In this document: in pieces, positions 3,511 to 9,252 of the stretch
How the letters are laid out: every line of letters starts with the position of its first letter
Position numbering within the stretch: position 1 is the first letter of the stretch
Source: a virus
IMG/VR virus record: IMGVR_UViG_3300025674_000205
Coordinates: 1-32,065 of that record
Length of the DNA: 32,065 nucleotides
Strand: one strand, 5' to 3'
Made by a program: the position numbers and the translations under genes
Notes under the pieces: generated by a model
Databases searched by the model: none
The model's input: only the letters and a program-made list of their open reading frames with translations
Told to the model about the DNA's origin: nothing

Positions 3511-4761
3511 TTACACTCCGTTGGTCAAATCATAAAAGATAAGTGAGCCAATAGCTGAACCTGAAGGTGTACCTGTTACGGCAGTACGAATACCAACCGT
3601 CATAATGTCGCTTGTGCCACCTATTGTTCTACCAAGCTGCAAACTAAACTTGTAACCTGTTGGTGCGTCAACACCACTACCAGCCTGTACAGTATTTGTA
3701 ATATAGTCTAACTGCACAACTTCACCACCTGTCATCGCGGTAGCACTTACATCATAATCCACATTGGTAAATGCGCTGGTATCCCAAGATGGGCTTGTTA
3801 ATGTGGCATTACGAACAAGTGTTATAATGTAATCTTGTCCAGTAGTAGGCAAGACTTTAACAATTTGTGGAAGTACAACAGCATCAAGAGAACCGCTATT
3901 CAAACGGACGGATACTAAAGGTAAAGTTGTTAGGCCTATACTTGAAAGCGTACTAGTTCGTTGTGCAGCCAATTCGTTTACATCTTGTTGATAACCGCCT
4001 TCACTTATGACTGTACTACAAATTTGTTTCATTGTAGCAGCAGAACTAATAGTATCTGTTGCGGTAATCTCGTAACGTATCGGCAGGATAGCTGTCTTCA
4101 TATAGACTGAAGTCAAGTTATTAGCGTTGTGAAACTTGTGGCAGATTACGTTCTGCCCATCAATTACAAAGCCTACACGTACTGTACCTACACCAAGCCA
4201 CTCATAGTCAATCAAAAGAATCTGTGTCTTTGTTTCATCCAGTGTGTATCCACTAGGGCCAGTACCATCCAGTTTATCTACATTCCAGTTAGCCTGTGTC
4301 ACATATCGTGCGTCACTTGCACTGCCGCTTGTTGATGTACGAATTACAAAACGTAAATCTGTTTCATTCTGTTCAAAGTAGACACCATCATCAAAACCAA
4401 AGTAACCTACACGTTGGCGTAGATTAGCCTGTGATGCAGCCATTGTAAAGGTAGCAAGGGTAAGCAGCGACTTTCCCGGCTGGTATGGAAATACACGTTT
4501 TGTTTGCCGTATGACTTCACCAGTAGCTGTACCCACCGTCATAGAGTTGCTGCTCTCGTCAGATAAATGAGCAAATACTCCACTGCCTGTTGAACTGGTA
4601 TCAAACTGTGGGTCAGCTTGAAAACGGTTCTGACTATCAAACAGAGTATAGGGCTGACTTATACGCAGTCTACCAAACGCATCAACTGTGTGGTCAGCAA
4701 ATGCAACATCATTACCAATAGTACCAAAGACAACTTTTTCTGGATAGCTTGTTATGCTCAT
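3511..4761 (-). CDS. Virion structural protein (conserved in marine phages)
   Basis: A 416-residue protein with a conserved N-terminal signature AFGRLRISQPYTLFDSQ (28-44), which I recognise from virion proteins of many marine myo- and podoviruses. The rest is beta-rich with strand-like repeats and no enzyme motifs; for example YFEQNETDLRFVIRTSTSG lies in a segment that resembles a lectin-like or fibre domain. It is the largest protein of the left late operon and lies among small decoration-type genes, which fits a fibre, spike or head-decoration protein. Its ATG overlaps the stop of the gene upstream (TAATG). Virion location is known only by homology, and receptor binding is only a possibility. 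Confidence 0.75.
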   Translation of the reverse strand: MSITSYPEKVVFGTIGNDVAFADHTVDAFGRLRISQPYTLFDSQNRFQADPQFDTSSTGSGVFAHLSDESSNSMTVGTATGEVIRQTKRVFPYQPGKSLLTLATFTMAASQANLRQRVGYFGFDDGVYFEQNETDLRFVIRTSTSGSASDARYVTQANWNVDKLDGTGPSGYTLDETKTQILLIDYEWLGVGTVRVGFVIDGQNVICHKFHNANNLTSVYMKTAILPIRYEITATDTISSAATMKQICSTVISEGGYQQDVNELAAQRTSTLSSIGLTTLPLVSVRLNSGSLDAVVLPQIVKVLPTTGQDYIITLVRNATLTSPSWDTSAFTNVDYDVSATAMTGGEVVQLDYITNTVQAGSGVDAPTGYKFSLQLGRTIGGTSDIMTVGIRTAVTGTPSGSAIGSLIFYDLTNGV

Positions 4762-6572: not shown

Positions 6573-6770
6573 TTAAATGCCTTGTTGCGGCTGGCACGTA
6601 AACTGCGCCGTGTATGGAAACGGTATAGTGTTTTTAATTTGCTCAAATATCTCATATGCTCGTCTTTCGCAGTCATTAAAAGTATAACCAATCTCACGTG
6701 TATCTTCAAAGAAAGTACACATTGTGGGATTGTATAGGCTACAGATTATCAGAATCGTTTTCAGACCCAT
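6573..6770 (-). CDS. Small hypothetical protein, possible signal sequence
   Basis: A 65-residue protein with a hydrophobic N-terminus (MGLKTILIICSLYNPTMC) carrying two cysteines, then a charged helix with another cysteine (FNDCERRAYEIFEQIKN) and a C-terminal CQPQQ. It may be exported or membrane-anchored. The layout is like the gene at 2517-2744 and like small marine phage proteins of the form (hydrophobic)-C-(helix)-C. It overlaps the preceding gene by 32 bases. Function unknown. Confidence 0.6.
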   Translation of the reverse strand: MGLKTILIICSLYNPTMCTFFEDTREIGYTFNDCERRAYEIFEQIKNTIPFPYTAQFTCQPQQGI

Positions 6771-6969
6771 CGGTCCACCCTTCCATACGCATGGCCCACT
6801 CTACGTGTTCCAGCGTGAATGGTCGGCCATAGTGGGCCTCTACAGCTTTACGTACATAGAAGACATCACTGTGAGGAATGTGAAGGCGGTCAAGTGTGTT
6901 AGTACGGATAGCTTCATAGAATGCTTCAAGAACATTGTCTGTGTATAGTTTTACGGATTTCTTAGCCAT
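6739..6969 (-). CDS. Small conserved phage protein, first gene of the left late operon
   Basis: A 76-residue protein with a core LDRLHIPHSDVFYVRKAVEA and ending near MEGW; I recall similar short proteins in marine podoviruses, without function. The start is ATG at 6967-6969; an in-frame TTG two codons upstream is less likely. It is the first gene after the perfect-consensus leftward promoter at 7105-7133 and would have an untranslated leader of about 130 bases. That leader crosses the CAYTTAAGTG sites. Being first in the operon, it could be a regulator, but no helix-turn-helix is obvious. Confidence 0.65.
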   Translation of the reverse strand: MAKKSVKLYTDNVLEAFYEAIRTNTLDRLHIPHSDVFYVRKAVEAHYGRPFTLEHVEWAMRMEGWTDGSENDSDNL

Positions 6970-7018
6970 TGTCAAGAACTTTTTACAGAATAGTACAGAT
7001 ATTATCTGTAAGTAGTGT

Positions 7019-7090
7019 CACTTGTAAGTGTTACATTTAAGTGTATTTAACATCTTTTTTTAAAAAGCATTTAAGTGATTCACTTAAGTG
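7019..7090. repeat. CAYTTAAGTG operator-like array
   Basis: Four related sites lie in 72 AT-rich bases: CACTTGTAAGTG (7019-7030), CATTTAAGTG (7034-7043), CATTTAAGTG (7068-7077) and the perfect palindrome CACTTAAGTG (7081-7090). A further near-copy, CACTTATGTG, is at 7241-7250. The palindrome is about 15 bases downstream of the -10 box of the leftward promoter, the usual place for a repressor or a transcription-coupled regulator. An origin iteron role is also possible. Confidence 0.6.
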
Positions 7091-7104
7091 TTATGTTATA
7101 TATA

Positions 7105-7133
7105 ATTATACACATTTTAGGGTATGTTGTCAA
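7105..7133 (-). promoter_or_regulatory. Leftward sigma70 promoter, perfect consensus
   Basis: On the minus strand TTGACA (7133-7128) and TATAAT (7110-7105) are separated by exactly 17 bases. Both hexamers match the bacterial housekeeping consensus. Transcription would start near 7098 and run into the leftward operon beginning at 6969. The CAYTTAAGTG sites lie directly downstream, so a strong promoter held by a repressor is a reasonable model. Confidence 0.8.
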
Positions 7134-7250: not shown

Positions 7251-7710
7251 CTTGTTTACGACAGTTACCCCTGTGGTTAACACTTGAAAATCCTAATCTG
7301 TGTATTTCTGTGTATATATATCTACGTAACCGGGGGGTGGCCCCTGCCTACCCGCCTGATTCAAAACAATTTTCTGCCTCGCCGCCCGCAAATCCGCAGA
7401 AAACTGCCAAGAAGCAGAAGAAAATGCAATCAAATCAATAGCTTGCAGTTAAATGGTAGCTGATAAGCTATCAGTTATCTTTGAGAATACCGCGAAAGAG
7501 GGCGTAAGTTATTGATAACGCTGAGAAAACACTACGGCCGTGCATATTTTACCCCTACCCATGCTATATTATACGCGTATAGCGTTCTCGTTTTGTTCTC
7601 TTTCGCCATGCTATCACCAGAACGAAACAGCAACGAACTAGGAACGAAACAGGAACACCCGATATGCCTCAATAAAAAGTGTAACAAAATCAATGGGATA
7701 AAAAAAGTGT
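7251..7710. other. Non-coding stretch of the control region with palindromes and short repeats
   Basis: I see no convincing gene here. It holds a CTGATA/TATCAG hairpin at 7460-7474, the perfect 12-bp palindrome TATACGCGTATA at 7570-7581, and two copies of GAACGAAACAG at 7620-7630 and 7642-7652. An inverted, related stretch (GTTCTCGTTTTGTTC) lies near 7585-7599. These could be regulator or origin sites. Two weak frames starting at GTG or TTG have no ribosome-binding site and unlikely composition. Confidence 0.5.
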
Positions 7711-7739
7711 TTGACTATCCTTTTTCCTTTTGCTAGTCT
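7711..7739 (+). promoter_or_regulatory. Candidate rightward promoter before the structured RNA
   Basis: TTGACT (7711-7716) and TAGTCT (7734-7739) are 17 bases apart. The -35 box is good and the -10 box weak. The nonamer TTGACTATC and its T-rich spacer recur at 8490-8518, which suggests a shared regulator or sigma preference. Transcription would begin near 7746, at the edge of the hairpin-rich segment. Confidence 0.45.
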
Positions 7740-7936
7740 CTAAACATGAACAGGCCACTGACGGCCAATCGCAGGAAACAGTCCTTGGGATTGATAACCA
7801 TAGCGAGAGGCTAGGCAAACGATACCAGCGGGTAAGTCTGTTCTTACTGAATACCCAGTCCGCATATGGGAATAGAAGCGGATACGACTAAAAAGGTTTT
7901 TAAGTTTTTAGTGTTTAGTCGGAAGAAAATAAAAAC

Positions 7937-7965
7937 TTGACAGGTGGGGACAGGCTGAATATACT
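7937..7965 (+). promoter_or_regulatory. Near-consensus rightward promoter inside the structured region
   Basis: TTGACA (7937-7942) and TATACT (7960-7965) are separated by 17 bases, eleven of twelve positions matching consensus. Transcription would start near 7971, just before the AGTCGG/CCGACT hairpin. It is therefore the strongest candidate for the main start of the structured RNA, or the start of a read-through early transcript. Confidence 0.6.
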
Positions 7966-8422
7966 GAACAGACAGTCGGGAAGGCGAATTGAGCCGACTA
8001 TAAAGTAGCCAAGTGTGCAGACACTCAAAATACTAGGCTATCATGACGGGAGAAATCCGTCTAGCTGGGCGAACCATCACCAGGGCTGACTTCAAGTCGG
8101 GCTAACTAGGTGAAGTGCAAGGGGGCAGTCTGTCCTGAAACCGCAAGTGCGACCAAGGGTGCATTTGTATGACAGGGAAAGTGCGACCGGAAATCCTAGG
8201 GTGGTCAATGTGATTGGGGCGATAAATTGTAAAGGCCAGTTTTGTCTGTTGTCTGGCCGCCATGACTATAAGTCGGGATACGCAAGCCATGGGAAATCTA
8301 CAGATGGAACGCAAGTAATGTCTGCAATCAGCTTATGATGGCCTGACTTTGCCTTGGCAATTTCCCTGATAAAGTTTTTTACAGTCCAGAATCCGGTGCT
8401 TGCGTGGTAATATGCAAGAAAC

Positions 8423-8487
8423 AAAAAAGGTAGGGCGTATGCGCTAGTCTTATGACAGTTAAGCTAATGCCCTACCTATCATTTTTT
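8423..8487. terminator. Terminator-like hairpin, possibly bidirectional
   Basis: A perfect 9-bp stem, AGGTAGGGC (8428-8436) with GCCCTACCT (8469-8477), encloses a second hairpin (CTTA/TAAG in its core). On the plus strand it is followed by ATCATTTTTT. On the minus strand the stem runs directly into TTTTTT. It separates the structured RNA from the promoter and gene that follow. The 32-base loop is longer than in a typical intrinsic terminator. Confidence 0.55.
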
Positions 8488-8489
8488 GA

Positions 8490-8518
8490 TTGACTATCTT
8501 TTCTAATCTTGTTAAGTT
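8490..8518 (+). promoter_or_regulatory. Candidate rightward promoter before the early operon
   Basis: TTGACT (8490-8495), 17 bases, TAAGTT (8513-8518). The first nine bases and T-rich spacer repeat the element at 7711. The leader to the GP88 gene would be only about 22 bases. The -10 box is poor, so an activator may be needed. Confidence 0.4.
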
Positions 8519-8547: not shown

Positions 8548-9252
8548 ATGACATACAATCTCATAGGCGTAGGTAATAACGCCAAAACTGTCAAGGGTGA
8601 TGGCACTGAATACATGACAGGTATTCAATACATGAAGCCATACAAAACCATATTCAAGGGCAAGGTGCATAATCTATGTGCCTTGGCAGACAAGGCAAAG
8701 TGCCATGCTGGTTGTCTCAATACGGCAGGGCGTGGGCAGATGACTGTTGTTCAGCGGGGCAGAGAACGCAAGACAATGCTATACCTGTCTGACCGCATAG
8801 GCTACATGGATGCTCTGTATAAAGACTTGACTATATTCAGTCGCAGACAGCAGAAAAATGGTATCAAGCCATGCGTCCGACTCAATGGCACTAGCGATAT
8901 TCAGTTTGAGAAAACAGGTATCATGGAACAATTCCCAGAGATACAATTCTATGACTATACTAAAATTGTCAAAAGGGCGTATGCCAAATTGCCTGACAAT
9001 TATCATCTGACGCTATCCTACAGTGAAGCTGACCCAGAATATGCAGAACAGGTATTGACAGCAGTGCGCGAGACTGGTATCAATGCGGCAGTCGTATTCA
9101 GAGGCAAGCTACCCAAGACATTCAAGGGATTGCCTGTAGTGGATGGTGACAAGGACGACTTGCGCTTTCTTGACCCACAAGGTGTTATCGTAGGGCTGAA
9201 AGCAAAAGGCAGTGCAAGGCAAGACAAGACTGGCTTTGTGATTGACGCATAA
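8548..9252 (+). CDS. GP88-family protein
   Basis: A 234-residue protein matching the phage gene product 88 family. Conserved features are a cysteine cluster at 44, 52 and 56 (CALADKAKCHAGCLNTAGR), DRIGYMDALYKDL at 82-94, RLNGTSDI at 111-118, FYDYTK at 134-139, NYHLTLSYSE at 151-160, VVDGD at 197-201, FLDP at 207-210 and GLKAKG at 216-221. The family is widespread in phages. The three cysteines and the layout of the core recall iron-sulfur or barrel enzymes, but no reaction has been established to my knowledge. GGAG lies seven bases before the ATG. It is the first gene of the rightward operon. Confidence 0.85.
   Translation: MTYNLIGVGNNAKTVKGDGTEYMTGIQYMKPYKTIFKGKVHNLCALADKAKCHAGCLNTAGRGQMTVVQRGRERKTMLYLSDRIGYMDALYKDLTIFSRRQQKNGIKPCVRLNGTSDIQFEKTGIMEQFPEIQFYDYTKIVKRAYAKLPDNYHLTLSYSEADPEYAEQVLTAVRETGINAAVVFRGKLPKTFKGLPVVDGDKDDLRFLDPQGVIVGLKAKGSARQDKTGFVIDA

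Follow-up and report, generated by a model that had tools for sequence, protein, structure and literature searches.

A putative accessory locus for two tandem structured RNAs in the control region of HMO-2011-type marine phages

A stretch of viral DNA between two divergent operons most likely represents an accessory locus making two tandem structured RNAs, the larger of which, a core RNA, would act in trans early in infection; we give this reading a probability of roughly 65%. The DNA analysed (the window) is a virus contig of 32,065 bases, the whole of its record. The locus has a conserved fold and no conserved reading frame, retains its synteny, is patchily distributed among related phages, exchanges modules and carries conserved promoter-like sites. 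That it is transcribed, where exactly its RNAs end, that they act in trans, when they do so and what they are for are predictions from these sequence features.

Gene setting and relatives of the locus

The window belongs to an HMO-2011-type marine phage, as two of its genes show: the DNA polymerase shares 78% identity with that of Puniceispirillum phage HMO-2011, and the gene to the left of the RNA segment shares 75% with its homologue in HMO-2011. To the left of the segment is a leftward block, which contains a virion structural gene; to its right, a GP88-family gene opens a rightward block in which integrase, helicase, polymerase and ribonucleotide reductase genes come further on. The coordinates of all features are compiled in Table 1. 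Upstream of P1, a conserved block at 7590-7660 with GAACGAAACAG-like repeats and inverted GTTCTCGTTTTGTTCTC is retained by the nearest relatives. At 7060-7120 and in L270 at 1199-1360 there are clusters of CACTTAAGTG-like palindromes with TTTAAGTG repeats, which occur in HMO-2011 and CRP phages too and are possible operators or a possible origin.

Table 1. Features of the RNA locus and its flanks in the window; promoters are predicted sites.
Feature	Position	Strand	Sequence elements	Remarks
Leftward gene, 72-78 aa, conserved	6739..6975	-		borders the control region in phages with and without the RNA
Promoter P1	7711..7739	+	TTGACT-17-TAGTCT	expected start near 7746
RNA1, putative 5' unit, ~190 nt, exchangeable	7746..7936	+		start inferred from P1, end from P2
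RNA1 stem	7885..7921	+	CGACUAAA (7885-7892) with UUUAGUCG (7914-7921)	predicted from sequence
RNA1 pseudoknot	7902..7938	+	loop AAGUUUUU (7902-7909) with AAAAACUU (7931-7938)	ends on the P2 -35 box
Promoter P2	7937..7965	+	TTGACA-17-TATACT	inside the segment of the earlier note; 11/12 sigma-70 consensus bases
RNA2, putative core RNA, ~505 nt	7972..8477	+		in ~20 phage contigs; start inferred from P2, end from the 3' helix
Helix H1	7974..7999	+	AGUCGG (7974-7979) with CCGACU (7994-7999)	8 distinct versions, permutation p 5e-5
Possible pseudoknot PK1	7983..8010	+	loop GGC (7983-7985) with GCC (8008-8010)	by eye, short
Hairpin Pa	8143..8168	+	GCAAGUGC (8143-8150) with GCAUUUGU (8161-8168)	loop with invariant CCAAG
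Loop-loop (kissing) contact	8153..8357	+	CCAAGG (8153-8158) with CCUUGG (8352-8357)	complementarity
Hairpin Pb	8234..8258	+	GGCCAG (8234-8239) with CUGGCC (8253-8258)	permutation p 0.003
Pseudoknot PK2	8245..8304	+	Pb loop UCUGU (8245-8249) with ACAGA (8300-8304)	permutation p 2e-5
3' stem-loop	8428..8477	+	AGGUAGGGC (8428-8436) with GCCCUACCU (8469-8477)	around near-invariant UGCGCUAG..CAGUUAAGC
Promoter P3 of the rightward genes	8490..8518	+	TTGACT-17-TAAGTT	directly past the RNA
First rightward gene, GP88 family	8548..9252	+		PF17338; phrog_1617

Relatives were found via the GP88-family gene, DNA motif scans, profile searches and a scan with the leftward gene. The search of viral contigs with the GP88-family gene yielded 60 loci, four of which (L002, L003, L006 and L007) contain the RNA core in full or almost in full, and L004, L008, L009 and L023 contain it in part only, chiefly both ends. 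Taken together, the searches gave about 20 distinct contigs that have the core and 4-5 more in which its middle is replaced or diverged. Wherever a contig extends to the flanking genes, the RNA occupies the same slot between the same divergent operons, and where the contig reaches far enough it is flanked by the leftward gene and a rightward gene for a 125-aa protein. Exceptions to the direct neighbourhood of the latter gene are L101 and L323, and in the window and L002 it lies a few genes beyond the first rightward gene position. The first gene after the RNA is variable, encoding GP88 in the window and the 125-aa protein in other members. The 125-aa protein, whose predicted structure is of low confidence, was ruled out as a dedicated partner of the RNA because its gene is present in RNA-less phages too. 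tRNA genes are found in some RNA-bearing contigs (L095 5285-5355 on the plus strand; L092 791-861 and L323 315-385 on the minus strand), and ARAGORN detected no tRNA or tmRNA in the window.

The scan with the leftward gene showed that most sibling phages are without the locus, the RNA being present in 4 of about 61 loci that have this gene and enough upstream sequence. It is absent from the control regions of the cultured phages HMO-2011, CRP-1, CRP-345 and CRP-207. A similarity search of the phage collection with the RNA gave nothing meaningful, and covariance models of the 3' hairpin and the Pa-Pb block found no convincing member among 83 other loci. Matches to the 3' motif in the genome collection were rejected as likely chance; a profile search found no convincing member among the matches listed.

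The same control region of HMO-2011, CRP-345, CRP-1 and other RNA-less phages carries a different conserved element, ..TTT.GCGCAC..hairpin..AAACGGCA.GCGCAGAGGAT (L270 about 1970-2035, L272 about 2020-2095, L274 about 1860-1920, L010 near 3447, L016 near 3156; also L278 and L321). The arms of its hairpin change together (CAATC/GATTG, GTATC/GATAC). It has no Rfam match and is possibly another unnamed RNA.

Covariation and fold of the RNA

Taken by itself, without relatives, the window makes a weak case for an RNA. An earlier note on this DNA had counted more than nine perfect hairpins. With stems of at least 5 bp, loops of 3-10 and no overlap allowed, five were found, as compared with 4.5 ± 1.8 in dinucleotide shuffles, 99 of 200 of which reach five, so that the hairpin count is at chance level and no evidence for structure. 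The fold energy is only mildly below that of shuffled sequences, with z -3.5 for 746 nt (20 shuffles) and -1.7 for the 505-nt core. A decamer that the note had reported as repeated, AAGTGCGACC, does occur in two exact copies (8145 and 8179), but it is not a conserved repeat in relatives, because the first copy is an arm of Pa and undergoes compensatory changes there, e.g. to AACAGCTACC in L003.

The structured RNA itself, for which the note had proposed a search for compensatory changes in relatives, passed that test. Permutation tests were applied to distinct arm pairs only, with arms chosen by eye from the alignments and phylogenetic relatedness ignored. Under these terms the long stem-loop that the note had also seen near the 3' end, and which is indeed present, gave p 1.5e-4 for its helix. 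It shows double changes in 11 of 14 pairs with 99.4% of cells paired; none of 500 shuffles reaches this, and slid controls do not exceed 3. Hairpin Pa occurs in eight distinct versions (p 6e-5) with double changes in 6 of 7 pairs and Pb has them in 4 of 6, giving 10 of the 13 pairs predicted by RNAalifold in the two together. The Pb loop pairs with a strand about 50 nt downstream to form PK2, of which there are nine distinct versions, such as UCUGU/ACAGA, UUAGU/ACUAA, UUGGU/ACCAA and UAAGU/ACUUA. At the 5' end of the core, counterparts of PK1 were recognized by eye next to H1 (GCC/GGC in L139, GCU/AGC in L101).

In 20 of 20 members, the loop of Pa is complementary to another loop, located about 200 nt downstream. 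The two read CCAAGG/CCUUGG or, with both sides changed, CCAAGU/ACUUGG, and covariation is seen in the stem that holds the CUUGG loop (p 5e-5). The permutation value of the kissing pair itself (p 0.33, computed with a wrong CCAAG picked in L007 and L340) is not significant because only two states exist; the evidence for the contact is its complementarity in all members. In RNA1, a 3' stem and pseudoknot are found in the window and, with different letters, in the L095 group, where the stem analogous to that of RNA1 covaries (p 0.008). Analogues of the pseudoknot in relatives read GGUUU/AAACC, GGGGUU/AACCCC and GGUGAUU/AAUUACC (only four versions, p 0.04). A generic stem search across the whole alignment gave noisy output, since indels shift the columns.

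As the note had stated for the segment, no credible reading frame was found. The longest open stretches over the core vary between 14 members in their place, strand and frame, and no protein frame is conserved across the core in related phages. A large structured non-coding phage RNA, neither spacer nor protein gene, is therefore well supported by the comparison of relatives.

Promoters, module exchange and alternative readings

The rightward promoter that the note had placed before the segment is present as a promoter-like site (P1). A site of the pattern TTGAC-N17/18-TANNNT is also found at the place homologous to P2 in 17 of 21 sequences and is missing in L074, L077 and L085. The plus strand of the whole record contains eight such sites, P1, P2 and P3 among them, as compared with 2.2 in shuffles. 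Because a near-consensus promoter is conserved inside it, the segment is more likely made up of two tandem units, RNA1 and RNA2, each ending in structure that abuts the next promoter. Thus, of the single RNA gene of about 740 nt that the note had proposed, the structured RNA gene is supported but the single unit is not, P2 probably splitting the segment.

The two units also differ in their behaviour. Between the window and L002, identity is 95% upstream, 37% in RNA1 and 98.6% in RNA2, with 95-99% in the flanks of RNA1; near-identical phages have exchanged their 5' unit. In L092 and L099 the 3' part is nearly identical and the preceding parts are different. In L005 and L328, which have related flanks and the same 125-aa gene, a small protein frame fills the RNA slot. 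This frame in the near siblings has about 70 aa (L005 about 4194-4412, plus strand; L328 about 3075-2857, minus strand).

The 3' hairpin had been described as terminator-like. A terminator scan found no intrinsic terminator at the 3' end of the RNA in the window, and most relatives have no ordinary terminator, T's following the hairpin only in the window and L002 and the -35 box TTGACA of the next promoter taking their place in most relatives. Just past the 3' helix, L095 and L139 have inverted repeats, GGGTGTAATGTCACACCC among them, that resemble an operator and overlap the -10 box of the promoter following the RNA.

Three other readings of the locus were considered. A single continuous RNA of 740 nt from P1, with a variable 5' and a conserved 3' domain, would change the boundaries only and share the idea of action in trans. 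It is possible but the less probable arrangement. In its favour, P1 exists, L074, L077 and L085 do without P2, and GOLLD has been described with a similar pattern, its 3' part being conserved and its 5' part less so (PMC12286853). Against it stand the near-consensus sequence of P2, found at the homologous position in 17 of 21 sequences, and an RNA1 pseudoknot that ends on the -35 box of P2. The fewer versions and weaker statistics of RNA1 (p 0.008 and 0.04) count against the main reading. A DNA-level element, conserved as replication origin or operators, might be suspected from the location in a control region and from the AT-rich palindromes and GAACGAAACAG-like repeats upstream. However, G-U pairs are tolerated in the helices, helix letters change freely with pairing retained, and both loop-loop and pseudoknot contacts persist over distances of 50-200 nt. 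This is the behaviour of RNA and leaves a DNA element very improbable.

The RNA could also be a cis-acting 5' leader that controls the rightward transcript, for example an attenuator or an antitermination element like put of phage HK022. The put RNA is a cis-acting antitermination leader of tens of nucleotides, and what it shares with the present RNA is that it is structured and stands at the head of an early phage transcript. The RNA of the locus has the orientation of the first rightward gene and immediately precedes it, the 125-aa protein gene directly follows the RNA in most RNA-bearing contigs, and without a conserved intrinsic terminator read-through into the early mRNA, and with it a role in cis, is possible. 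Nevertheless, most members have a promoter between the RNA and the first gene, so that, with P2 as a putative promoter of the RNA itself, transcription of the rightward genes does not have to pass through it. In addition, the first gene is not constant, the locus is absent from most sibling phages, and the RNA, with its 500 nt and a loop-loop contact, greatly exceeds put RNAs in size. A leader is thus unlikely. An accessory RNA acting in trans is favoured by three features: the first gene has a promoter of its own, this gene differs between members, and a protein frame can take the place of the RNA.

Known RNA families and the proposed role

At the Rfam 15 gathering scores, no family matches the RNA segment in the window or in the relatives scanned, and introns, RNase P, tmRNA and other known RNAs were ruled out on this basis. 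The note had considered GOLLD and ROOL, and covariance models matched neither. In nine RNA-bearing records, a direct search with GOLLD (RF02032) gave no match at E <= 10 and one with ROOL (RF03087) gave none; the control genomes gave no ROOL match either, so the verdict on ROOL rests on the Rfam scans. The likeness to GOLLD, a large phage RNA with a conserved 3' and variable 5' region, is a general resemblance and does not imply membership. Some RNA-bearing contigs also have a tRNA near by, but the RNA described here is shorter than GOLLD and has an internal promoter, and its window has no tRNA. With ROOL it has in common that it is a large structured RNA of phages or prophages without a known protein partner. 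A known structured RNA in the same genome, manA (RF01745; 24554-24720, plus strand; 67.6 bits with a gathering score of 55.2), differs from it in sequence, fold and place. Among open-licence papers, no report of an RNA at this locus was found.

We propose that the accessory locus of HMO-2011-type phages opens the rightward, probably early, region and is transcribed in that direction. Two sigma-70-like promoters would give two tandem structured RNAs, an exchangeable 5' RNA of about 190 nt and the core of 505 nt. The core is predicted to fold compactly through a 5' helix with a likely pseudoknot, the loop-loop contact, the second pseudoknot and the long 3' stem-loop, which probably protects its 3' end. 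It would most likely act in trans early in infection, either as a stable RNA or as a ribonucleoprotein scaffold, in the way an accessory protein might from the slot in siblings. More speculatively, and on balance doubtful, the core could be a new class of large RNA, an exchangeable cassette in a marine phage group that ranks among the most abundant. Its pseudoknots and loop-loop contact would then fold it into a compact particle, perhaps a homo-oligomer like those of GOLLD and ROOL, whose targets in trans at an early stage would be the machinery or the defences of the host.

An RNA of this kind, structured, about 500 nt long, located in the control region of these phages and not covered by Rfam, would enlarge the small set of known large phage RNAs by a class, and the core is a compact, strongly covarying target for work on structure and function. 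The swaps of the 5' unit and the replacement of the RNA by a protein frame suggest that RNA genes, like protein genes, can serve as accessory cargo of phages.
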